Source: Burkholderiaceae bacterium (GTDB lineage: Bacteria > Pseudomonadota > Gammaproteobacteria > Burkholderiales > Burkholderiaceae). From it: a stretch of DNA of 64,000 nucleotides. Made by a program: the position numbers and the translations under genes. The stretch spans positions 1 to 64,000 of the forward strand of contig CANFOL010000012.1 in the NCBI GenBank assembly GCA_947448695.1, given 5' to 3'. Each line of letters opens with the position of its first letter. The stretch's first letter is position 1. The notes below the pieces were generated by a model. The model ran no database searches and was not told the DNA's origin. It saw only the letters and a program-made list of their open reading frames with translations. Positions 11,189 to 26,278 of this stretch are shown here, one piece after another.

Positions 11189-11581
11189 ATGAATTTACCC
11201 ACTGAACTCTCCTTAAGCGATATCAAAGAAACCCAAAAGGTTACTTTGCCGCAGATACCTGCTAAGCGATATTTCACGATTGGTGAAGTAGGGGACTTAT
11301 GTGCGGTCAAGCCGCACGTACTGCGTTATTGGGAGCAGGAGTTTAATCAACTTAAACCTCAGAAGCGCAGAGGTAATAGAAGATACTATCAGCACCATGA
11401 AGTGGTGCTCATCAGAAGAATCAGAGACTTACTCTATAACGATGGCTTTACCATCCATGGTGCTAAAAATCGCTTAGAAGAGTTAGACAGTCAAGGTCAG
11501 ATTAGAACTGAACTTGAAGCTGTCTTTAATATTTTGGGTGATTTGCGTAAACTCGTAGATCATTCCAAAACATCAAACTGA
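11189..11581 (+). CDS. MerR-family transcriptional regulator
   Basis: A 130-residue protein with an N-terminal MerR winged helix-turn-helix ([20 protein letters not shown] and WEQEF, then the wing RRGNRRYY) and a short C-terminal helical region without an obvious metal-binding cysteine set. A MerR-like gene directly downstream of ihfA is the common betaproteobacterial and gammaproteobacterial arrangement; its target is unknown. It ends 17 nt before the tRNA gene. Confidence 0.9.
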
Positions 11582-11587
11582 TATAAT
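11582..11587 (+). promoter_or_regulatory. -10 element of the tRNA-Pro promoter
   Basis: A perfect TATAAT at 11582-11587 ends 11 bp before the tRNA 5' end and overlaps the stop of the MerR-like gene. No good -35 hexamer is seen 17 bp upstream, so this is a partial promoter call. Confidence 0.5.
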
Positions 11588-11598
11588 CTAAATTTCGT

Positions 11599-11675
11599 CG
11601 GGGCGTAGCGCAGCCTGGTAGCGTACTTGCATGGGGTGCAAGGGGTCGTGTGTTCGAATCACACCGTCCCGACCA
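11599..11675 (+). tRNA. tRNA-Pro (anticodon GGG)
   Basis: A 77-nt cloverleaf: acceptor CGGGGCG pairing with CGTCCCG (one G-T wobble), D arm GCGC/GCGT, anticodon stem CTTGC/GCAAG around the loop ATGGGGT (anticodon GGG), T arm GTGTG-TTCGAAT-CACAC and an encoded ACCA end. Its 3' part is the insertion site of the element to the right. Confidence 0.97.
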
Positions 11676-11676
11676 A
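11659..11676 (+). other. Left attachment core (attL) of the integrated element
   Basis: TCACACCGTCCCGACCAA at the tRNA 3' end is repeated exactly at 20423-20440. Insertion here rebuilds the tRNA 3' end, as usual for tyrosine integrases. Confidence 0.88.
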
Positions 11677-11741
11677 AATTACTAAAAAAGTTGTTCATTA
11701 TCAATAACTTAACTTTTTAGATTTCTTATTAAAAACTTCAT

Positions 11742-11764
11742 GGTGTGATACAAAGGTGTGTTAC
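11742..11764 (+). repeat. Left pair of integrase arm-type repeats
   Basis: GGTGTGATAC (11742-11751) and GGTGTGTTAC (11755-11764) are direct repeats with a 13-bp period, 65 bp inside the left attachment core and just in front of the integrase ATG. The same pair, in the same orientation, lies inside the right end. Likely arm-type integrase sites that may also regulate the integrase gene. Confidence 0.65.
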
Positions 11765-11769
11765 TTTCC

Positions 11770-13344
11770 ATGGGTTTTAACTCAAAATTTCTCGTTCAAA
11801 ATAGATTTGGAGTCTTTTACTTTCAAAAAAGAGTTCCAAATTGTTATTTAATTAAAAGTCCAAGATTACCAAAGTTAGTTAGACTATCTCTTGGAACAAA
11901 ATCAAAAAAAGAAGCAATCAAACTATCAAGGTTGATTTCAGTCATGTGGGACTTAAGAGCACAACAATATTTTGCAAATGAACAGTCATATCACGAAGGT
12001 ATGAAACTGTTTCAGCAGTATTTAAAAGCAGTTGTTCAATATCCAAAATTTGAAGATATCTCAACTCACTTTTTTGATTTGTTGGACGATGTAACTAGTA
12101 GTGATTCTCGCTTACTAGAGAACGCAGTTAATTATCATGAGTCTTTACAGATAGATAAAGGTAACAACCCATACGCTAATGAGATTCAACAGTTAAGAAC
12201 GATGTTGAGTTCAAGCAACAAAACTAATTCTTCAGTTAATTCAGTTCAATTAGATGAAGCATTTGATGAGTTCATTAGTCATCACAAAACATCTTGGAGG
12301 GAAGATGGAACGATGGAGTCTTCTTATCGTGTTTCTTACTATCCTGTTTTGAAATCAGTCATAGGAGAATCTAAGACAGATGAGATTACTAAAGCACACA
12401 TCAATCAATTCATAAAGATTGTATTGAATCTACCTGCTAATAAGTCAAAGATGGAAAAGTATCGGAATAAAGCGATGTTAGATTTCTTGACGATGACTGT
12501 TCCTGAGAAAGATAAACTCAGTCCAACTAGTCAAGAAAAATACATTAGACGAATCGCTACTTTCCTAAGATGGTTACGAACAAACGATTACACAGAAATC
12601 GATTTAGATTTACCTATAAAAGGTGTGAAGTTTGCAAAGACACGTTCAAATGAGCAACGAGCAAGTTTTACTAAAGCAGATTTGGGTAAGTTATTTAATA
12701 GTAAAGAATATTCACATGGATTACACAAGCAATCAGCACATTTTTGGGTGCCGCTTATTGGTGTATTTACAGGTGCTCGATTGAATGAGATTTGTCAGTT
12801 GCTTGTGAGTGATATTCAATTAGACGAAGAAACGAAAAGATGGGTATTTGACATTAATGATGATAAGAAAAGCGACCCCAACAAGTCATTAAAGAAACCC
12901 TATCATGCTCGACTTGTTCCTATTCATAAAAAACTGATTGAACTTGGATTCATTGAGTTTGTAGAACAACAGAAGAAGAGTAAACATAAGCGATTGTTTC
13001 CTGAATTACCGTTTGTCAGCAATAACAACAAGTATGGTGATAAGTTACAACGTTGGTTTAATCGGACTTATACGAAGAATTGTCAAATTAAGACTGTGAA
13101 TACTTCTTTTCATTCGTTAAGACATACCGTTATTACACACCTAGTCAACGAGAAGAAAATTGATCCTAATCGAATTGCAATTGGATTTGGTCAAACACCA
13201 GTAGGGGGTGTCACACAGACTGTTTATACAAAAAGACAGTCTGCTTCAAGTTACTTTCAGTATTTCGATATGATTGATTTTAGAGACTGTATTGATATTA
13301 AAAAGATAAAAGGGTGGAAATATCATCAATTTAATCGAAGTTGA
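11770..13344 (+). CDS. Tyrosine recombinase (phage-type integrase)
   Basis: A site-specific integrase of about 524 residues. The N-terminal region (FLVQNRFGVFYFQKRVP) is the DUF6538-like arm-binding type, a SAM-like core-binding domain follows, and the catalytic domain shows the first arginine in GARLNE, then SFHSLRHTVI (His-x-x-Arg), and the nucleophile Tyr in TQTVYTK. The residue usually His before that tyrosine appears to be Gln (GFGQTPVGGVTQTVY). I prefer ATG 11770; a GTG at 11758 inside the repeat is also in frame. Location next to its tRNA target is typical. Confidence 0.93.
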   Translation: MGFNSKFLVQNRFGVFYFQKRVPNCYLIKSPRLPKLVRLSLGTKSKKEAIKLSRLISVMWDLRAQQYFANEQSYHEGMKLFQQYLKAVVQYPKFEDISTHFFDLLDDVTSSDSRLLENAVNYHESLQIDKGNNPYANEIQQLRTMLSSSNKTNSSVNSVQLDEAFDEFISHHKTSWREDGTMESSYRVSYYPVLKSVIGESKTDEITKAHINQFIKIVLNLPANKSKMEKYRNKAMLDFLTMTVPEKDKLSPTSQEKYIRRIATFLRWLRTNDYTEIDLDLPIKGVKFAKTRSNEQRASFTKADLGKLFNSKEYSHGLHKQSAHFWVPLIGVFTGARLNEICQLLVSDIQLDEETKRWVFDINDDKKSDPNKSLKKPYHARLVPIHKKLIELGFIEFVEQQKKSKHKRLFPELPFVSNNNKYGDKLQRWFNRTYTKNCQIKTVNTSFHSLRHTVITHLVNEKKIDPNRIAIGFGQTPVGGVTQTVYTKRQSASSYFQYFDMIDFRDCIDIKKIKGWKYHQFNRS

Positions 13345-13354
13345 TTTGTTCATA

Positions 13355-13415
13355 CTAAGAACATGCTGAAAACCATTAGCAAACAGTTCTAAAGATGTTC
13401 TAAAACTGTTCTTAG
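13355..13415. terminator. Inverted repeats between convergent integrase and methyltransferase genes
   Basis: CTAAGAAC (13355-13362) pairs with GTTCTTAG (13408-13415), and AACAGTT (13382-13388) with AACTGTT (13404-13410); the two right arms overlap, so they compete. The motif GTTCTWA occurs three times. There is no T run, so termination is inferred only from position between the two gene ends. Confidence 0.3.
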
Positions 13416-14674
13416 AAATGAATGATATCTGGATGATAGTAGATTGTTTGTGCAATCCTAGTAACTACTCCGGTGACTAGAGCATTTCCCATAAAAAATG
13501 CTCTTCGAGTATCAGACACAGAGTCAATTTTTGTATGATTATCTGGAAATCCATTAAGTCTTTCTAGTTCCACAGGAGTTAATCTTCTATATTTACCTGT
13601 AGAGGTCAGCACAACATGTTTAAATCTAGATGCTGATTTTCCACCTTCTCCTGTAATAATTGTCCTTGATGGTTTGTTAATTGAATCAGGAAAACTAACT
13701 GGACCTTCATCGTAAGAGTATTGTGTTCCATCTTTTTTAGTTCGGATTATGCTTTTTGCATTTTTATGAAAGAACCACTTATCAAGTTCTTCATTATTGA
13801 TGAAATATTCCTCAGGAACATCGGTTTCATTAATTAGAGTATCTCCTAAAGTAAAAAAATTACCATCATGTTTAGGTGTTGATTTAAATGTGAGAACTTC
13901 TCGATTGATTGAAAGTCCAGTATTTTGAAACGGTGTAACTTTTGAGTGCGATTTATTAAAAGATTCGGTAATTGTTGGTAAATCACCATTAATAACAAAT
14001 GTTGGATGCATTGGAACATTTAAACTAGTATCGTTGCATTTGAAACCTTTCGCTAAAACACCTGATTTAGCAATCCAATCATATGGGTTTGAGTTTATTT
14101 CTTTAAAAGCATTAGTGGAATTTAAGTATCCTAGAATAAATGTTCTTTTTCTCCTTTGTGGGAATCCATATTCTGCTGCATTTATGACTCGCCATTCGAC
14201 TGCATACCCAAGGTCATTCATTGATGCAAGTATCATTGCAAAATCTCTCCCCCTCTGACTTGCAGGAGAACCAAGAAGTCTATCGACATTTTCAAGTATT
14301 ACTAAGGAAGGTCTTTTATCATGAAGAATTCTATGAATATCCCACCATAGAACTCCTTTTTTCCCAGAAATACCTTGCGCTTGATTTAAAGTTCTAGCAA
14401 CTGAATAGTCTTGACAGGGAAATCCACCTACGAGAATATCAAAATTGTCTGGAATATCCTGCGAAGAAACTTTAGAAATATCCTCATTGCTATGATTATC
14501 AGTACCCCATCTTGCTACATAAACTTTTGAAGCATGTTGGGATTTTTCATTGGGTTCCCATTGATTACTCCACACTACTTTGAATTTTTCTTCATCGATA
14601 AGGAAATTTGCTCTTTCAAATCCAATTCTAAACCCACCTACACCAGCAAAAAGTTCAATTATCTTAAAAGTCAT
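13412..14674 (-). CDS. DNA (cytosine-5-)-methyltransferase
   Basis: A 420-residue C5-cytosine methyltransferase that protects host DNA from the adjacent endonuclease using S-adenosylmethionine. Conserved motifs in order: I (ELFAGVGGFRIGFE, 8-20), IV with the catalytic Cys87 (GGFPCQDYSVA), VI (ENV, 128-130), VIII (QRRKRTFILGY), a target recognition region of roughly 150 residues, and X (FMGNALVTGVV). AAGGA precedes ATG 14674. It is last in the operon, 58 nt after the endonuclease stop. The recognition sequence is not readable from the protein. Confidence 0.95.
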   Translation of the reverse strand: MTFKIIELFAGVGGFRIGFERANFLIDEEKFKVVWSNQWEPNEKSQHASKVYVARWGTDNHSNEDISKVSSQDIPDNFDILVGGFPCQDYSVARTLNQAQGISGKKGVLWWDIHRILHDKRPSLVILENVDRLLGSPASQRGRDFAMILASMNDLGYAVEWRVINAAEYGFPQRRKRTFILGYLNSTNAFKEINSNPYDWIAKSGVLAKGFKCNDTSLNVPMHPTFVINGDLPTITESFNKSHSKVTPFQNTGLSINREVLTFKSTPKHDGNFFTLGDTLINETDVPEEYFINNEELDKWFFHKNAKSIIRTKKDGTQYSYDEGPVSFPDSINKPSRTIITGEGGKSASRFKHVVLTSTGKYRRLTPVELERLNGFPDNHTKIDSVSDTRRAFFMGNALVTGVVTRIAQTIYYHPDIIHF

Positions 14675-14732
14675 ATAAATCCTTATCAGTATTCTTATAT
14701 TTTATATGACAAGGTTAAGATGGCAATATTAT

Positions 14733-15350
14733 TCAAATGTAATCTATAACTCCAACATTATTTCTACCTTGTTTTGTATGAACTATCTTAAATGTTTGAG
14801 GTTTTTTTAAAGCAATAAAAAGTATTGGTACTGTCAACACATTTCTTAATGGATCAAGATAGGTTTTTATCTTTTCAAATTCACCAACAGCACTATCAAA
14901 CCCACCAGCAATTTTCATTTCTTCACTTGCACAAATGACAATACCAATTTTTGTTTGTATTGCTTTTTTTACGTGATTTAATTCACTAGCGATCACGGGT
15001 TTGAGTAAATTCCAAGCGATTGCTTCTCCATGATTAAATGCTACTTCGATAGAGATATCATTACCAGCAAAATCGAGTCGCCATGTTTTATTATTTCTTG
15101 GATTATATACAGGGTCTTGAAAAATTTTAGATTCTGCATGCCATCCATTTGCTACTAGTTTTAGTTTTAATACTTTATTGATTGTTTCACTAATGCTTTT
15201 TGCTTTTCTGTTGGCATTTTCAAAATGGTGAATAATCTCATCATCACTTATTGATTGAATCGTAATTAGTAAATTATCAAATATAGGTTTAAATTGAGGT
15301 TCATTTAAGATTGTTTCAGCATGTCTAAATGAATAAGTTTCAAAATCCAT
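14733..15350 (-). CDS. Type II restriction endonuclease, BglII/BstYI-like
   Basis: A 205-residue protein whose opening (YSFRHAETILN) and core (WRLDFAGNDISIEVAF, about 90-105) resemble the BglII/BstYI endonuclease family (BglII itself is 223 residues), in which an Asp...Glu-x-Gln set binds the catalytic metal. Candidate residues here are Asp98 and Glu102; the third position is Ala104 rather than Gln, which is odd. A strong ribosome binding site (AAGGAG) precedes ATG 15350. Position beside a cytosine methyltransferase supports a restriction enzyme, possibly with a GATC-centred site as in relatives (inference). Confidence 0.68.
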   Translation of the reverse strand: MDFETYSFRHAETILNEPQFKPIFDNLLITIQSISDDEIIHHFENANRKAKSISETINKVLKLKLVANGWHAESKIFQDPVYNPRNNKTWRLDFAGNDISIEVAFNHGEAIAWNLLKPVIASELNHVKKAIQTKIGIVICASEEMKIAGGFDSAVGEFEKIKTYLDPLRNVLTVPILFIALKKPQTFKIVHTKQGRNNVGVIDYI

Positions 15351-15391
15351 AAATTGCTCCTTTTATGTATTTTTAGCACATTTTTATTTTT

Positions 15392-15826
15392 TTATAAATT
15401 AAGCAATTCCTTTTTAACTAAAGTAAATTCTTCGTCATACTCCTCAAACTCTGGAAAATCCCAACTAACTCTCATATTTGGTTCTGTTTTCTTTAAATAC
15501 TCTTGACCATCATATATTTCAATCATTCGATTAATGAAGTCTTTCATTTGAATTCCAGCAGTTAAGAATGCTTCCCATATTTTAATTAATTGAGCATTTA
15601 ATATTGGTCGATAATCCAAATGAAATTTATCATTTTGAAATTGTTCTCTCAAGTAATTATTAATTGAGTCATTTCCAAATATTTTTTCAATTTCCCCATG
15701 AGTAAAAGTTTTGGAGTAGAGCGTTCTAAATGGTTCTTTATCGAAACTATGAAGGAAAATTGCAAATGCATAGACTACTTCTTTTGCAAGTTCATTTTGT
15801 GTGATTCGAGGTTTTTCATTAGTCAT
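15392..15826 (-). CDS. Hypothetical protein heading the restriction-modification operon
   Basis: 144 residues, acidic and helical, rich in Phe and Glu; no motif or helix-turn-helix that I recognise, and no signal or membrane segment. It is the first gene of a three-gene reverse-strand operon, 41 nt before the endonuclease, so it may be an accessory or control component of that system. The Shine-Dalgarno before ATG 15826 is weak. It diverges from the structured-leader gene to the right. Confidence 0.65.
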   Translation of the reverse strand: MTNEKPRITQNELAKEVVYAFAIFLHSFDKEPFRTLYSKTFTHGEIEKIFGNDSINNYLREQFQNDKFHLDYRPILNAQLIKIWEAFLTAGIQMKDFINRMIEIYDGQEYLKKTEPNMRVSWDFPEFEEYDEEFTLVKKELLNL

Positions 15827-15931
15827 TTTGTATATTCTTTTGTTCTTATTATGAACATTTTAACCCTTTGATTTTGCACTCATTTTTCTTCCAAAAAATA
15901 CAACAATTTCCATATTAATCAATGGTTTAAC

Positions 15932-15960
15932 TTGACTTTTACCCCTATTTTTGCTATAAT
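15932..15960 (+). promoter_or_regulatory. Strong sigma-70-type promoter
   Basis: TTGACT (15932-15937), a 17-bp spacer and TATAAT (15955-15960) make a near-consensus promoter reading right. The predicted transcript would start near 15967 and carry a leader of about 190 nt before the gene at 16160. Confidence 0.75.
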
Positions 15961-15966
15961 ATTAAA

Positions 15967-16130
15967 GTAGTAAATGAAGTAATCGTGCATCACATATTGA
16001 GTCCATAATGCGACTCAAGAAACCACGAAATAGTGACCACTTATAACAAAAACTAAGTCACTCCAATTTAATCATTTGAACAAAATTTCAAAACTCTTGA
16101 CTGAGTCTGAGACCCCTTTTGTTCAAAATT
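15967..16130 (+). ncRNA. Structured leader RNA or small RNA candidate
   Basis: Between the promoter and the next gene lie three inverted repeats: TTGAGTC/GACTCAA (15997-16003, 16012-16018, 8-nt loop), AGTGAC/GTCACT (16032-16037, 16057-16062) and an exact 11-bp pair TTTGAACAAAA/TTTTGTTCAAA (16075-16085, 16117-16127). No open frame fills the leader. It could be a regulatory 5' leader, a separate small RNA or a protein-binding region; no known RNA family recognised. Confidence 0.5.
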
Positions 16131-16159
16131 TATAAAACATATTTCGAAAGGTATTCATT

Positions 16160-16852
16160 ATGAAGAACAAATTAACAATTCAACAAAAGCAACAGAAACT
16201 CGCTAATCGTTGTAAAGATATTTCAGTTACGACTAGATTCATTAAAAATTATCAACTTGCAACTAAAAATGCTATTGAACAGATATTAAACATGGGTACG
16301 GCAGTAAAAGAAGTCTATGAACTATCAAAGTCTGGAGAACTTAATGTCTATGACTTGAATTACTTCTGTATGAATGTAGGTATTTCACAGAAAAGTTCAA
16401 CCTTTAGAAAATATAAAGCAATTGGTGAGAATGCAGATAAGTTTAGACTTTATATGGATAGACTTCCATCTGCATTTTCAACACTCTATGAAATTGCAAC
16501 TTTGGATGCTGACACTTTTGAAGAAATATTTATTAATGGTTATAACTGCCAAGGTTTAACTCTAAAACAGATTAAGCATCTAGCAAAAAAAAATAATCCT
16601 GTTCCTACTAAAAACAATTCAAAGACAAGTAACCCTAATTATGTATCACCAGCGTCTATGAAGAAATTGTTCAAAGTAATGAATAGATTTCCAGTTTATA
16701 TTCCTTCTACCTTAACGGAATCTAAATTAAATGAGGTGATTAAAGTCTTTGAGGACTTACAAAAAAATGGTTTGATAAGTTTTGAGACCCCAACTATCAT
16801 GAGTTATACGAATGATAAAGATGACGATAACAATTTAAGACTTGCCGCATAA
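16160..16852 (+). CDS. Hypothetical element protein, possibly DNA-binding
   Basis: 230 residues with a basic, helical N-terminal half. The stretch around TFRKYKAIGENADKF and LPSAFSTLYEIATLDADTFEEI (about 80-125) is reminiscent of DUF3102-like phage or plasmid proteins, but this is a weak resemblance from memory. A polar low-complexity linker (NNPVPTKNNSKTSNPN) separates a second small domain. GAAAGG precedes ATG 16160 at good spacing. It is expressed from its own strong promoter and structured leader, divergent from the restriction-modification operon; a regulatory or replication role is possible. Confidence 0.65.
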   Translation: MKNKLTIQQKQQKLANRCKDISVTTRFIKNYQLATKNAIEQILNMGTAVKEVYELSKSGELNVYDLNYFCMNVGISQKSSTFRKYKAIGENADKFRLYMDRLPSAFSTLYEIATLDADTFEEIFINGYNCQGLTLKQIKHLAKKNNPVPTKNNSKTSNPNYVSPASMKKLFKVMNRFPVYIPSTLTESKLNEVIKVFEDLQKNGLISFETPTIMSYTNDKDDDNNLRLAA

Positions 16853-16913
16853 CTGTAATCATATGTTTTCGAATACACTTCTAGAACAGTTTTCGATGAC
16901 ATATTGACCATCT

Positions 16914-16952
16914 TATTCATTGACCCCCATAGAGTTGATGAATAGGGGTTTT
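16914..16952 (+). terminator. Possible terminator after the 230-aa gene
   Basis: TATTCAT (16914-16920) pairs perfectly with ATGAATA (16938-16944), while ACCCC (16923-16927) can instead pair with GGGGT (16945-16949), which runs into TTTT. The two foldings exclude each other; the second resembles an intrinsic terminator with a long loop. Confidence 0.45.
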
Positions 16953-17446
16953 CAGAACACTAGAAAAAAGTTTTCCATAGGTCGGATTGAAATTCTTGGA
17001 TAATTTTTTCTTGGCAGGAACTCATGTGTATGAAATTTTTTCCTGGGGTGCTGGTACTAGTTTAACTATTTTACCTGGTGAAATTAACCTGATATCTACT
17101 TGTATAAATACTTATATGAAGCAGTATCTGTAACAAGTGAGACAAGTCCCAAGTCCCCAATTAAATCTCGTAGGAAGTGCGGTAGATTGGATAGAGACTA
17201 AGACAAAACAGATGATGAGAAGCACTAGCAACGATAAGTGCTTTAAATAAATAAATTCGTTGGGATTGGTGCTCTGAGAAAAAAGCAACACCAGATTGGT
17301 TAGAAATCGTTCATGTGGTTCTAATTGGTTCCCGTTGATTCGCAAAGCAGACGTAAAAGCAACAGGTCAACCCTCTTGCTGAAATAAGGTGTTATTTTCT
17401 ATTTCAGTTGTCTACATGATGGTGTCTGAAGATCCTATACTCAGAT

Positions 17447-17474
17447 TACACTTTGCCGAAACAGGCAAAGTGTA
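17447..17474. repeat. Perfect 11-bp hairpin
   Basis: TACACTTTGCC (17447-17457) and GGCAAAGTGTA (17464-17474) are exact reverse complements around the 6-nt loop GAAACA. No T run follows, so it is not an ordinary terminator; it lies alone in the gene-poor part of the element. Confidence 0.7.
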
Positions 17475-17530
17475 TCTAAAAATCCTGCCTCAGATAATAT
17501 TACTCTAGATTAGTTTCCATTCATTCATGT

Positions 17531-17642
17531 CACTACGTTCCATGAATAATCACTTCGTTCATGTATCTATTTTTATTAATCCAAATAAGACCACGAACGA
17601 ACGTATGTGAGTGAGTATGACGAAACGAAGTGTAGTCATACT
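17531..17642. repeat. Cluster of CACWWCGTT motifs with a hairpin
   Basis: CACTACGTTC (17531-17540) and CACTTCGTTC (17551-17560) are direct repeats 20 bp apart, each followed by CATG or ATG. AACGAAGTG (17624-17632) is the same motif on the other strand, and GAACGTATGTG (17599-17609) a diverged copy. AGTATGAC (17614-17621) pairs with GTCATACT (17635-17642). Iteron-like layout; function unknown. Confidence 0.5.
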
Positions 17643-17676
17643 TAATGTTCCGTTAAGAACAAATTAATATCCAACA

Positions 17677-17859
17677 TTAATCATAATATGGTTCTCTAGA
17701 GTATTCTTGAATCTGCTCTTGTGCCTTATGGTCACATATAGGATCTTGATAAAAATTACCTATCTTATCCAGCTTCTCTTGTAATTGGACTTTCCAAGAT
17801 TTTTTCATTAATGGTTTACCAAGAATGATTACATTTGAACCATTTGACCTAGATTTCAT
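17677..17859 (-). CDS. Possible small protein (60 aa)
   Basis: A short basic frame from ATG 17859 (a TTG at 17874 is also in frame), sequence beginning MKSRSNGSNVIILGKP. No family recognised, no clear Shine-Dalgarno, and nothing in the neighbourhood supports it beyond an open frame in a sparse region. Confidence 0.25.
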   Translation of the reverse strand: MKSRSNGSNVIILGKPLMKKSWKVQLQEKLDKIGNFYQDPICDHKAQEQIQEYSREPYYD

Positions 17860-18042
17860 AAAAGATTTAACCAATTAATTAAGACTAATAAGTTTCCACT
17901 ATTCATGGTTAGATTCCAAGTTATATAAATACCCATAAGAATTACCAATAAACCCAATATGAACCAAGATTGTCGTTAGTGATATCGCTTACCGTAGTCT
18001 TCACTTACATCTTAGTTTCTATGTCCAATTAAAGGGAGTCAA

Positions 18043-18240
18043 ATGAATTATCAAATTACCGACAAACCAAATGTTCAGTTTCCAATCCGAATCTCACATG
18101 AGTTACATACTCGATTTACTCAAGTTTCTCAAGATACTCGAATTAATAAGTCTACATTACTGAGAATTGCTATGGATAGGTTAGTAACGCAGATTCAAAG
18201 TAACGGTATAACGGCAGTGCTGAATGAGGTGTCGGAATGA
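18043..18240 (+). CDS. Ribbon-helix-helix (CopG/Arc-like) DNA-binding protein
   Basis: 65 residues with the pattern of a ribbon-helix-helix repressor: a short beta strand (NVQFPIRIS, about 9-17), helix A (HELHTRFTQVSQDT) and helix B (NKSTLLRIAMDRLV), dimerising to contact operators through the strands. AAAGGGAG precedes ATG 18043 at ideal spacing. It heads a four-gene operon and overlaps the next gene by 4 nt (ATGA), so it probably controls that operon or forms an antitoxin-like component. Confidence 0.75.
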   Translation: MNYQITDKPNVQFPIRISHELHTRFTQVSQDTRINKSTLLRIAMDRLVTQIQSNGITAVLNEVSE

Positions 18241-18422
18241 AGAAGTCGTTCAAACGATATCTTAAAGAAAATCAAGAGAGGTATTACACCACCTTAAATC
18301 TATACAAAGAGATGAGTTCAGAAGATATTGCTTATTACTTTGAACAACTACTTCCTGTCATTTATAAGTCTTTACAGAGTTCTGATGAAGTTCTTGTAAC
18401 AGTTGAAACAGTAGGTGATTAA
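18237..18422 (+). CDS. Small hypothetical protein (61 aa), operon gene 2
   Basis: A 61-residue protein with a basic N-terminus (MKKSFKRYLKENQERYY) and an acidic remainder; no recognised family, signal or membrane segment. Its ATG overlaps the stop of the ribbon-helix-helix gene in an ATGA arrangement, which argues for translational coupling and for the frame being real. Confidence 0.6.
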   Translation: MKKSFKRYLKENQERYYTTLNLYKEMSSEDIAYYFEQLLPVIYKSLQSSDEVLVTVETVGD

Positions 18423-18424
18423 TC

Positions 18425-18598
18425 ATGATTCTTGATAAGATCAATCTCAAAAGAACAATTGACCAGACTAGACCTCAAGATTTACTTGTTCTCAGTGTGA
18501 ACAACATTGAAAAAGATAGTGTAAACACCAATCTCAAAACGATTGAAAAATTCATGAATAAAAAGGATGATTATGTAATTATGGTGATGAGGAGGTGA
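18425..18598 (+). CDS. Small hypothetical protein (57 aa), operon gene 3
   Basis: A 57-residue frame (MILDKINLKRTIDQTRPQDL to DDYVIMVMRR) starting 2 nt after the previous stop. Its last codons AGG AGG TGA contain the AGGAGGTGAT ribosome binding site of the next gene, so the two are physically interlocked. No family recognised. The tight packing on both sides is the main support. Confidence 0.5.
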   Translation: MILDKINLKRTIDQTRPQDLLVLSVNNIEKDSVNTNLKTIEKFMNKKDDYVIMVMRR

Positions 18599-18605
18599 TG
18601 TAGAT

Positions 18606-19598
18606 ATGAGATTTCAAATTGAGCCTGTTAAAAGTAATTCAATTACTGAAAGATGGATTTTTAAAAAAAAAGATAAAGAAATTAAATGTGGTTATGTTTA
18701 TGACAGTGGATATTTAACATTAAAAGTCGAACCTACATTTCTTAAAACTTACAATCCAGAAATAGGAATTTGTTTAGATGACATAAAGGGATGTATTGAA
18801 CGAAATTTTAATAATAGAAAGAAAGTAATTCATTTTTCAGAAACTATTCCAGAAGAAGAAAGAAAAAAATTTCTAAAAAAATTCGAAAAGGAAGATATTA
18901 ATTATTTTTATAGCAATAAATTTCTTGGCTATGGTGGGAAATTTGACTCAAGTGAAATGTTTATCTTTGGAGAACTAATTTGTAAAAAAACTTTTGAGTT
19001 TATAGAGGATGAATTTTTAGTTAATTTGGTTTTTAAAAATATTAATTTATCTAGAGATGAAATTATTAGAAATTGTGGATATGTTAATGAAGATAATGAA
19101 TTACATTACATATTATTTTATGAAAAATTTTGTGAGGCGATTAAATGGAGAAGTTTAGATTGGGATACTCAATTTTTTTATGATTTTATAGATGAGAATA
19201 GGTCAGTATCTACGCCAACTGATTTTTTTGGAACTATTGGAGGCAGAGATATTTTGACTGTTACTGAAATAGTTGGTGACATTAATGAGATTTGGACAGA
19301 CGAAAAATTTATAAAAGTAGTTGAAGATCCTAAAGACTATAGTTGGTCGGGACCTTACGAAACGGGAAACCCTAATAATGGATCCAAGGGATACTTTTAT
19401 GGGCATAATTCTCTTGAGCAGGCATTTATGAGTTTTTCAGGCTTTATCCCAGACCTTATGAGACCTGCATACCTTGAGTTATCCTCTGAACATGAGGGAA
19501 TGGACTTAAAGGATTATTTAGAAGAATATGGCGAACATCCAATTAAACTTATAGAAATAATGTTTAACTATAATTCTTTTGTACACAACCCATACTAG
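18606..19598 (+). CDS. Hypothetical element cargo protein (330 aa)
   Basis: 330 residues, aromatic-rich and acidic overall, very AT-rich codons; no signal peptide, membrane segment, nucleotide-binding loop or nuclease motif that I recognise. A perfect AGGAGGTGAT precedes ATG 18606. The C-terminal third (WSGPYETGNPNNGSKGYFYG, then LEQAFMSFSGF) is the most distinctive part. Last gene of the operon led by the ribbon-helix-helix protein and next to the serine recombinase; as element cargo of unknown type it could be a defence, anti-defence or toxin component, which is speculation. Confidence 0.65.
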   Translation: MRFQIEPVKSNSITERWIFKKKDKEIKCGYVYDSGYLTLKVEPTFLKTYNPEIGICLDDIKGCIERNFNNRKKVIHFSETIPEEERKKFLKKFEKEDINYFYSNKFLGYGGKFDSSEMFIFGELICKKTFEFIEDEFLVNLVFKNINLSRDEIIRNCGYVNEDNELHYILFYEKFCEAIKWRSLDWDTQFFYDFIDENRSVSTPTDFFGTIGGRDILTVTEIVGDINEIWTDEKFIKVVEDPKDYSWSGPYETGNPNNGSKGYFYGHNSLEQAFMSFSGFIPDLMRPAYLELSSEHEGMDLKDYLEEYGEHPIKLIEIMFNYNSFVHNPY

Positions 19599-19651
19599 TA
19601 AATATATGATTGATATTTTCTTAAGCTTTTTTTAGAAACCTATTTTTATTA

Positions 19652-20239
19652 TCAAACATTCCCAACTACCTTATAGTAAGTCGCACATCCAATACTAAGT
19701 TTGCGACAGGTTTCTCTGACACCTACACCTTTATCTTTAAGTATAAGAACTGCTTGTTTCAGGCCATCGTTTAAAGAAGAGGGACGACCTAATTTGATAC
19801 CATTTTTCTTTGCTCTATCTAATCCCGCCACAACACGTTCTCGTATCATTTCTCGTTCAAATGATGCTAATGAACTAAAGATTCCAAATATCATTCTGCC
19901 TGAACTGGTTTGAGTGTCAATACTTTGCTGAGAAAAGAACATATCAATTTTTATTGCGTTGAGTTCATTCATTATTTCGATGAGATGAGTCACGGAACGA
20001 CCTAATCTTGAAATGTCCCAACACATCAGTAACTCAAACTTACGATGAGTGGCATCTTTCATCATTTGGTTGAGTGCTGGTCTATCTTCACGACCTTTTG
20101 AACCTGATATTCCTTTATCTTCGTAAATCTGAACAATGTTGTATCCAGATCTTTCAGCAATTTCCTTAAGAGCGAGTATTTGATTCTCAGTAGACTGTTT
20201 ATCAGTAGAAACTCTTGCGTATATTGCGACTTTTTTCAT
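19652..20239 (-). CDS. Serine recombinase (resolvase/invertase family)
   Basis: 195 residues from ATG 20239, which has GAGGG at good spacing (a GTG at 20251 is also in frame). The resolvase catalytic domain shows the nucleophile Ser11 in YARVSTDKQ, the conserved arginines in DISRLGRS, and the long E helix (SFEREMIRERVVAGLDRAK); a short C-terminal helix-turn-helix (GVGVRETCRKLSIGCATYYKVV) binds DNA. Length fits Tn3-type resolvases or DNA invertases. It may resolve multimers of the excised element or invert a segment; no matching recombination site was identified. Confidence 0.93.
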   Translation of the reverse strand: MKKVAIYARVSTDKQSTENQILALKEIAERSGYNIVQIYEDKGISGSKGREDRPALNQMMKDATHRKFELLMCWDISRLGRSVTHLIEIMNELNAIKIDMFFSQQSIDTQTSSGRMIFGIFSSLASFEREMIRERVVAGLDRAKKNGIKLGRPSSLNDGLKQAVLILKDKGVGVRETCRKLSIGCATYYKVVGNV

Positions 20240-20338
20240 GATTACCCTCACATTGTTTTGGAGTGGAGGAGGGTAACAAACGTGGATGAAATGGCAAGTT
20301 GTTCATATGTGAACAAACTTATCTCATATTGTGAAACT

Positions 20339-20361
20339 GGTGTGATACATTGGTGTGATAC
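20339..20361 (+). repeat. Right pair of integrase arm-type repeats
   Basis: Two exact copies of GGTGTGATAC (20339-20348 and 20352-20361), 13-bp period, 61 bp inside the right attachment core. They match the pair at 11742-11764 in sequence, spacing and orientation. Confidence 0.68.
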
Positions 20362-20411
20362 ATTTAATATTATTTAATAAATTACCATGTAGTAACAATA
20401 AGATACAGCGT

Positions 20412-20440
20412 TTGGTCGGGTCTCACACCGTCCCGACCAA
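20412..20440 (+). other. Right attachment core (attR) with flanking hairpin
   Basis: The 18-bp core TCACACCGTCCCGACCAA (20423-20440) duplicates the tRNA-Pro 3' end. In addition TTGGTCGGG (20412-20420) is the exact reverse complement of CCCGACCAA (20432-20440), so this end can form a 9-bp hairpin that the left end lacks. Confidence 0.85.
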
Positions 20441-20707
20441 TTAAATCAATAAGTGCCGGATGTAATCTCTGCTACGGAGGGGTGCACAATTTTTTATTTT
20501 TTTAAAACTTTCGCTTCATAGCTCTTGAAGTTATCGACCACCTGCACCACAAACTCAAGTACCGAAACTCATCCACAATCAACCCATTATGAGCTAATGA
20601 TAAGATATAAATACTCTCATTAATCGCCGTACTAAATTGATATCAATTCATTCAAGAGCCCTGATCAATGATAATCGTCTAATAATTTAATACTCAAAGG
20701 AGCGCAT

Positions 20708-25315: not shown

Positions 25316-26278
25316 TTGAGATACAAATCTTTCTTGTTTATCTTTATAAATATTTTAATTATTGATTTGGTATGTAGTAATCCATTATTAGCTCAGGATT
25401 ATCCAAATAAACCGATTCGGATTATTACCGGCTCAAGCCCTGATTTTCCAGTAAGAATTTATGGAAAAAAAATGACTGAAGCTTGGGGACAGCAAATCAT
25501 TGCAGAGTCTATTCCTACAGCCAGTGGAAAAATTGCTGCCGAAACCGTTGCAAGGTCTAAGCCAGATGGTTATACATTACTTAATGCTGTTCCTAGCCTT
25601 ATGATTGCGAATGCAGTTCAAGGTAATTATCCTGATTTGAGCAAAGACTTTACACCTGTAGCCATCACTAATTTATTGCCGTTTGTGTTTGTGGTTGCAA
25701 AAGATATTGAAGTTAATACAGTAGAAGCTTTTATTAAATTGGTCAAATCTCAGCCAGGAAAAATAAATTATGGTGCGACCAATGGAACCTTTCCTCATTT
25801 GGCTATTGAACTATTTAAATCAATGACTAAAACGGATTTTTTTCACATTCCTTTTAAAAATACAAACGATACAGCACTTGCTTTAGTTTCAGGACAAGTT
25901 CAAGTCACAGTGATACCCTATGGCAGTGTTGCAGCTTTACATCAAAGTGGGAAAGTAGTCGTTTTAGCTGTGACATCAAGTGATCGATCACCGTTACTCC
26001 CAGATATTCCTACCCTATCTGAGTCGGGTCTAAAAGGATATAACTTGTTAGGTTGGAATGCATTTGTTGCCCCAATTGGTACACCCACTGAAACGATTCA
26101 TCAATTAAACACTCATATTCGAAAGTCTTTTAAAGACCCCGAGGTTATTAAACAATTAAATGCAATTGGAAATGATCCTGGATTAGACTTAAGCCCTCAA
26201 CAACTTGGAGATTTTTTTAAAGCAGAAGTTTCAAAATGGAACAAGTTAGTTAACGAGGTTAAGATAAAAATTGATTAA
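25316..26278 (+). CDS. Bug-family tripartite tricarboxylate transporter receptor
   Basis: 320 residues starting at TTG 25316 after AAGGAGATAA, with a signal peptide ending near LLAQDYPNKPIRII. The usual PFPPGG loop is diverged (TGSSPDFPVRIYGKKM), suggesting a different ligand from the other receptors in the window. Follows the VOC gene at 24762 in a likely operon. Confidence 0.9.
   Translation: MRYKSFLFIFINILIIDLVCSNPLLAQDYPNKPIRIITGSSPDFPVRIYGKKMTEAWGQQIIAESIPTASGKIAAETVARSKPDGYTLLNAVPSLMIANAVQGNYPDLSKDFTPVAITNLLPFVFVVAKDIEVNTVEAFIKLVKSQPGKINYGATNGTFPHLAIELFKSMTKTDFFHIPFKNTNDTALALVSGQVQVTVIPYGSVAALHQSGKVVVLAVTSSDRSPLLPDIPTLSESGLKGYNLLGWNAFVAPIGTPTETIHQLNTHIRKSFKDPEVIKQLNAIGNDPGLDLSPQQLGDFFKAEVSKWNKLVNEVKIKID

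Follow-up and report, generated by a model that had tools for sequence, protein, structure and literature searches.

The window analysed here, the 64,000-nt stretch of contig CANFOL010000012.1 from a Burkholderiaceae bacterium (GCA_947448695.1), carries an 8.8-kb island at the 3' end of a tRNA-Pro(GGG) gene. This complete integrated element is one member of a family of tRNA-site islands, about 9–14 kb long, for which no published name was found. Because this family carries a structured RNA and boxes of the T4 late-promoter type, the island is probably a satellite switched on by T4-like phages, which is the most likely of the explanations weighed below.

The features are given below in order of position. 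Families and scores come from searches of ten open reading frames (ORFs) of the island against Pfam, PADLOC, NCBIfam and PHROGs, a set that includes one doubtful ORF of the noncoding stretch and leaves ORF57 out. Relatives were surveyed in 186 genomes of the same genus, which its gene content suggests to be Polynucleobacter; G numbers denote genomes and L numbers denote loci.

11599..11675, plus strand: tRNA-Pro(GGG), the integration site (ARAGORN; Rfam tRNA, 55.6 bits)
11659..11676, plus strand: attL core, 18 bp, exact repeat
11742..11764, plus strand: two arm-type repeats GGTGTG[AT]TAC (11742-11751 and 11755-11764), likely integrase arm sites
11758..13344, plus strand: tyrosine integrase, 528 aa (PF00589, 1.1e-9, over the cut-off; DUF6538 just under it; PHROG integrase, 1.8e-26)
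13412..14674, minus strand: m5C DNA methyltransferase, cargo (PF00145, 5e-67; PADLOC type II methyltransferase, 5.3e-156)
14733..15350, minus strand: BglII-like restriction endonuclease, cargo (PF09195, 1.3e-7, over the cut-off)
15392..15826, minus strand: 144-aa protein without a family, cargo (weak PADLOC scores, 0.0068 and 0.03)
15932..15960, plus strand: putative sigma70-type promoter TTGACT-N17-TATAAT before ORF230
16160..16852, plus strand: ORF230
16853-18042: 1,190 bp without a convincing gene, encoding a conserved structured RNA
17103..17110, plus strand: TATAAATA box before the RNA, of the T4 late-promoter type
17116..17503, plus strand: structured noncoding RNA, core 17294-17503, its probable 5' end placed from the box
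17924..17931, plus strand: TATAAATA box before the ribbon-helix-helix (RHH) operon
18043..18240, plus strand: RHH protein, 65 aa (PF12651, over the cut-off; L062 copy, 45% identity)
18237..18422, plus strand: ORF61, small backbone protein (relatives in L087 and L156)
18425..18598, plus strand: ORF57, small backbone protein (L062 copy, 51% identity; L129 copy, 2.4e-16)
18606..19598, plus strand: ORF330, cargo without an assigned family (partly common to L151 and L087)
19652..20251, minus strand, towards the island centre: serine resolvase-type recombinase, 199 aa (PF00239, 1.4e-44)
20339..20361, plus strand: two arm-type repeats GGTGTGATAC (20339-20348 and 20352-20361)
20423..20440, plus strand: attR core, 18 bp, exact repeat

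Ends, gene content and the empty site

The core TCACACCGTCCCGACCAA, which comprises the 3' end of tRNA-Pro(GGG) plus one base, stands at 11659-11676 and again at 20423-20440 with zero mismatches between the copies, and the tRNA is intact. No third copy was found in the window, even allowing 3 mismatches (0.01 expected; two copies in 0 of 100 shuffles), and the only two exact copies genome-wide are those at the island ends, which bears out the recurrence of the tRNA end claimed in the original prediction. The GC content of the island is 32.1%, compared with about 41% on either flank. The four arm-type repeats of the window all lie inside the island, two per end and equally spaced, and GGTGTG[AT]TAC likely represents the arm site of the integrase.

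A clear empty site is present in G149, of the same genus, in which 4.2 kb beyond the tRNA are covered. It holds a single core copy with 1 mismatch, aligned across the junction, and the right flank of the window follows the tRNA past about 156 bases that are absent from the window. Right-flank sequence also adjoins the tRNA in G126. One exact core copy each is found in G046, G150 and G126, whose contigs end 1.3–1.5 kb past the tRNA; within that distance no right-flank match was found in G046 and G150, which are not decisive because the contigs end early and a far copy is possible. The comparison with empty tRNA-Pro sites, as far as it was run, therefore agrees with the predicted complete island with exact ends, as do the two arm repeats at each end and the exact tRNA repeats, 18–48 bp long, that six family members share. 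Another proline tRNA, in G015 (L054:9922-10277), holds what is left of a sister element: here tRNA-Pro(TGG) is followed by 276 bp that resemble the left end of the window island at 90% identity and include a cut-off integrase; the integrase lineage of the window has therefore also used tRNA-Pro(TGG).

Named genes make up about 77% of the island. By family, the methyltransferase and the BglII-like endonuclease are predicted to form a type II restriction-modification pair, and the 144-aa protein has no relative among the 26 loci screened. In keeping with the predicted lack of structural phage and conjugation genes, no virion, conjugation or relaxase gene was found in the ten ORFs searched. The combination of an integrase and regulators with no virion gene in the four libraries is the one by which a phage satellite is recognised, and the relaxase of its own that would mark an integrative mobilizable element is missing from the ten ORFs.

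A family of islands with a structured RNA

Of the 186 genus genomes, 22 have an ORF230 relative (E 0.001), 15 a window-type resolvase (16 places; E 1e-45) and nine the structured RNA (ten places, five of which are the model's own members); 18 carry the RNA or the resolvase. In eight related elements the resolvase shares 51–59% identity with that of the window. Exact tRNA-end repeats of at least 18 bp delimit six elements, the window included, of the ten loci examined:

Window: tRNA-Pro, repeat 18 bp, span 8.8 kb
L097: tRNA-Ser, repeat 20 bp, span 10.4 kb
L087: tRNA-Met, repeat 46 bp, span 13.6 kb
L103: tRNA-Met, repeat 46 bp, span 12.4 kb
L128: tRNA-Met, repeat 46 bp, span 11.5 kb
L112: tRNA-Met, repeat 48 bp, span 9.3 kb

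L086 has a tRNA repeat of 14 bp only, and none of at least 13 bp was found at L129, L131 or the L054 remnant. The elements differ in integrase and cargo while the resolvase, the RHH gene and the small ORFs recur, which points to the mosaic of a living mobile family. The cargo includes restriction enzymes of other types (L097, L130), DnaJ and HNH proteins (L128) and a carbonic anhydrase (L113).

The gene-free stretch, which the original prediction does not mention, codes for a structured RNA that is kin to the Methylobacterium-1 RNA (RF01712). The latter is listed for Methylobacterium and marine samples, as neither cis-regulatory nor a switch (PMC2864571); no genomic setting for it was found in the open-licence literature. 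RF01712 is reached at 47.7–56 bits, over the Rfam cut-off of at least 40 bits, by four relatives in the genus. Three of them (L087, L112 and L113) are elements with an integrase, an RHH-position gene and a resolvase, and the fourth, L114, is a 7.6-kb contig with an integrase and the RNA in which no RHH gene was found. The window RNA aligns with all four copies and itself falls under the threshold: an Rfam search of window positions 11500-20500 at E 5 returned the tRNA and chance microRNA or small nucleolar RNA scores only, with no RF01712 match. The conserved RNA also extends past the Rfam model. Two covariance models of the core were built, R1 with the window and R2 without it. R1 finds the ten places mentioned above. 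R2 recovers the window at 130.4 bits (E 2.9e-35) and, among the 7 loci searched, L128 at 198.6 bits and divergent copies in L129 (138.1), L130 (36.2), L131 (40.2), L132 (32.2) and L097 (21.0 bits).

In the ten-sequence alignment, which was fitted to the model and so favours pairing, 87.6% of paired cells are compatible, compared with 74.8% when partners are shuffled and 31–44% when they are slid; the window match by R2 is independent of this fitting. Double changes affect 29 of the 54 pairs, compared with 8–12 with partners slid, and for four of five pairing measures no shuffle out of 500 came up to the observed value; for the fifth, the count of further pair types, 34 did. The sense strand, towards the RHH gene, is favoured: pairing is 87.6% on this strand and 77.7% on the opposite one, and G-U cells number 76 against 24 A-C cells. 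Of 11 RNA places (the ten of the genus survey and L097), 10 have an RHH-position gene 139–726 bases downstream in the same orientation, L114 being the exception. L062 and L103 have ORF230 and the RHH gene and give no R1 match, so the RNA is not universal in the family. Candidate roles for the RNA include acting against helper functions as a decoy or antisense, signalling packaging and priming replication.

Several further candidates were set aside. Identity with GOLLD or ROOL found no Rfam match; L153 scored 17.8 bits with R1, had no R2 match and was not counted; and L133, an IMG/VR contig, was picked up by a typed RNA pattern, covers a phage tail-type region and scores 6 bits, which is at chance. 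Methylobacterium was considered as a source of further RF01712 copies, and searches gave 0/2 and 0/17 in genomes around L002 and 0/274 in genomes of the class, with controls silent too, so that absence is unproven there. In 397 genomes around L002 a single match of 29.6 bits, below the cut-off, was obtained at L117, which has no R1 match.

Boxes of the late-promoter type, clamp genes and rival explanations

The box TATAAATA, which we take to be the T4 late-promoter spelling, occurs twice on the island, 191 bases 5' of the RNA core and 119 bases 5' of the RHH start. ATAAATA is the top 7-mer in both places across the family, being present between -140 and -60 of the RHH gene in 9 of 15 cases and between -220 and -140 of the RNA core in 8 of 11, and no 7-mer exceeded 5 in 500 shuffles. 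In the lineage defined by a window-type resolvase or window-type RHH protein together with an accepted RHH-position gene, 10 of 10 elements have [TC]ATAAATA upstream of the RHH gene, between -95 and -119, the boxes of L156 and L129 having been examined after the motif was noticed. The spelling is TATAAATA in the window, L087, L112, L113, L128, L103 and L129. The RHH genes of L113 (no Pfam match) and L128 (outside the Pfam search) were identified by pattern and place. The counts leave out the elements that have a window-type resolvase and no accepted RHH gene (L086, L151-L155 and L157); a 61-aa ORF of L154, matching the L113 protein at 1e-3, was not accepted.

T4 late promoters consist of an 8-bp TATA box at the -10 place without a -35 element (PMC2988020). 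The boxes of the island family have this form, with 8 bp in a fixed place and upstream matches to the -35 hexamer at chance (2.93 compared with 2.99 in shuffles, for 15 of 17 boxes; the other two have no upstream sequence in the stretch used). Unlike them, ORF230 in both the window and L062 is preceded by a textbook sigma70 promoter, the L062 counterpart reading TTGACA-N17-TACAAT. In 49 kb of the T4-like phage pf16, taken as a control, TATAAATA occurs three times, always on the structural-gene strand and within about 40 bases 5' of a gene (the major head gene, a baseplate wedge gene and a long unnamed gene), and the reversed motif once. The boxes before the RNA and the RHH operon thus follow the T4 late-promoter design, and they may well be used as such promoters. 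They differ from those of T4 in standing in bacterial elements rather than in a phage.

The second link to T4-like phages lies in relatives of the island. In T4, the sliding clamp, loaded on DNA by its loader, participates in late promoter activation (PMC2988020). A clamp loader of the T4 gp44 type, 213–221 aa long, lies directly 3' of the ORF230 relative in L103, L099, L102 and L104 (4 of 26 loci screened; PHROG 168, E 2.7e-43 to 2.8e-47). All four matches stop at residue 208-209 of a profile 314 residues long; each loader thus lacks its last third. Full-length sliding clamps are encoded in L104 and L099 (2 of 26 loci; PHROG 223, 1e-40 and 1.9e-36). In the PDB, the L103 loader matches archaeal RFC small subunits (9e-24) better than T4 gp44 (5.4e-16), and it shares 34–37% identity with T4-like phages among the 12 matches listed, of 2501 records; a T4-like origin is preferred on the strength of PHROG 168 and of the adjacent clamp in L099 and L104. 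A clamp-like protein of L156 (PHROG 223, E 0.0016) had no match in phages, the PDB or the pf16 protein at 25317-26030 and was not counted.

The sister lineage with an ORF230 relative comprises L099, L102, L104 and L096, of which the first three carry another RHH type; its serine recombinases include ones of 563–573 aa in L099, L102 and L096, and the gene adjoining L099 and L102 is presumably glmS. On plasmids, ORF230 relatives were found in three Azospirillum records. In one of these (L105) the neighbour is a ParA-like ATPase, with a terminase further on, so not every ORF230 relative sits with clamp genes.

Several observations weigh against a link to T4-like phages. Clamp genes are absent from the window island. 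In the sister elements that carry a loader, either with a clamp (L099, L104) or without one (L102), the RHH gene has no box in front of it, and box and clamp-type gene surely occur together in L103 only, and weakly in L156. No box precedes the RHH gene in L130, L131, L132, L104, L102 and L099 or the RNA in L129, L130 and L132; three of the ten RHH boxes read CATAAATA (L097, L062, L156); and the stretches in which the 7-mer was counted were picked after the motif had already been noticed. Among phage records only five partial integrase matches were obtained, with none for ORF230 or ORF330, and scans of viral contigs gave no true relative. The original prediction that a helper moves the island is favoured in its direction by the T4-type boxes and the clamp genes of relatives; no helper, excision, induction, transcript or virion was seen.

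In a rival explanation, the TATAAATA boxes would be promoters used by host sigma70 or controlled by the RHH protein and unrelated to T4-like phages, and the island, a satellite or not, would have another phage as helper or none. TATAAA is one base off the host -10 box TATAAT, the clamp-gene elements are mostly without the box, and an upstream block, CCACTATC...GATTCC, is partly common to the RHH promoters and might serve as an operator or activator site. We consider this explanation unlikely, since the -35 matches are not above chance next to the textbook sigma70 promoter of ORF230, the box is kept despite unlike flanks (L128, L131), and T4-like clamp genes are present in relatives. Slightly less probable still is conjugation in trans, in which the gene-free stretch would be an origin of transfer and the RHH protein a relaxosome helper, with a relaxase supplied by a co-resident plasmid or integrative and conjugative element. 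A long noncoding stretch adjoining an RHH gene and the lack of structural genes in the ORFs searched would fit; the conserved structure is RNA-like and favours the sense strand, conjugation does not account for the T4-type boxes and clamp genes, and no relaxase occurs in the ten ORFs, although the explanation does not require the island to have its own. A decayed defence island that is no longer mobile is very improbable: damaged related copies do exist (the G015 remnant and a stop in the ORF230 relative of G160), but in the window the ten named genes are open, the ends and arm repeats intact and the tRNA complete.

A possible satellite cycle and its known counterparts

As a satellite of T4-like phages, the island would express ORF230, and probably the integrase, from host promoters between infections. 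Upon infection by the helper, a gp55-type sigma factor and the gp45 clamp would recognise both TATAAATA boxes and thereby start transcription of the structured RNA and RHH operon late in infection. The element would be excised and then copied by the helper replisome. Since the capacity of a T4-like head is many times 8.8 kb, the DNA would be expected to be packaged as multimers, probably with the helper head unchanged. After injection the serine protein, if it is a resolvase and not an invertase, may cut the multimers to monomers, one of which the integrase would insert at the tRNA end, and the restriction-modification pair and other cargo would repay the host. A more specific proposal, which we hold tentatively and with less confidence than the satellite reading itself, is that the family is wired into T4-like late transcription: the RNA and the RHH operon would be transcribed from gp55-type promoters, the clamp genes of the sister elements would capture or poison the machinery, and the RNA would belong to the late satellite transcripts and act on helper replication, packaging or translation. 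T4-like phages are common in water. If the proposal is correct, two 8-bp boxes let a host island read the clock of its helper, and an RNA class that had no role when it was listed in 2010 gains a place in mobile islands, a promoter and a testable timing.

Satellites as such are already known, and a family with T4-type late boxes and a structured RNA was not found in the open-licence literature, nor was any satellite tied to T4-like late promoters. The PICMI of Vibrionaceae are similarly small and integrase-based, lack capsid remodelling genes and carry defence cargo, and their helper is virulent; for one of them, particles of full size were shown to contain a concatemer of 8 copies (PMC10803314). 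PICMI are defined by an integrase, AlpA, a primase and a fis site. Neither AlpA nor a DUF3987/DUF5906 primase had a Pfam match in the ten ORFs of the island, whose site is tRNA-Pro and not fis, and the structured RNA, RHH operon, resolvase and tRNA sites are the island's own. Tycheposons and VEIMEs are further close systems, set beside the island here by description only (PMC10803314).

The integrase of PLE, a satellite of Vibrio cholerae, is of a type unlike that of the island. PLE resembles the island as a satellite with a noncoding RNA; this RNA is abundant there, and expression follows the timing of the helper. The helper, ICP1, and the RNA itself are different ones (PMC7567579). The term "late promoter" is absent from that text.

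Some minor features of the family deserve mention. A DUF3102 match was obtained for 3 of 15 aligned ORF230 family members and not for the window copy. Single-sequence structure models of ORF230 and ORF330 were poor (pLDDT 46.5 and 34.9). The untranslated leader before ORF230 (window:15948-16143) is conserved with L062, L086 and L087 and contains an inverted AGTGAC...GTCACT motif; it is perhaps a second RNA element. In L088-L095, L098, L100 and L101 the ORF230 relatives are longer, about 300–350 aa, and most lie some kb from tRNA-Phe or tRNA-Pro/Arg.

A backbone protein with a WGD...FDDWW motif is encoded at L087:8280-8933, L097:10514-11371, L103:11039-11737, L128:10684-11316 and L153:2617-3300; the four copies searched gave no PHROG function, and no relative was found in the window island. 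The cargo of L087 includes a SAM-I/IV riboswitch match (17369-17468, 55.2 bits), and a protein of the element region in L129 (7480-9324) fuses a flagellin N-terminus to lactonase-type repeats. Two alphaproteobacterial contigs, L001 and L002, carry a remote integrase relative at a tRNA, accompanied in L002 by a nearby serine recombinase, and are possibly distant kin of the family.

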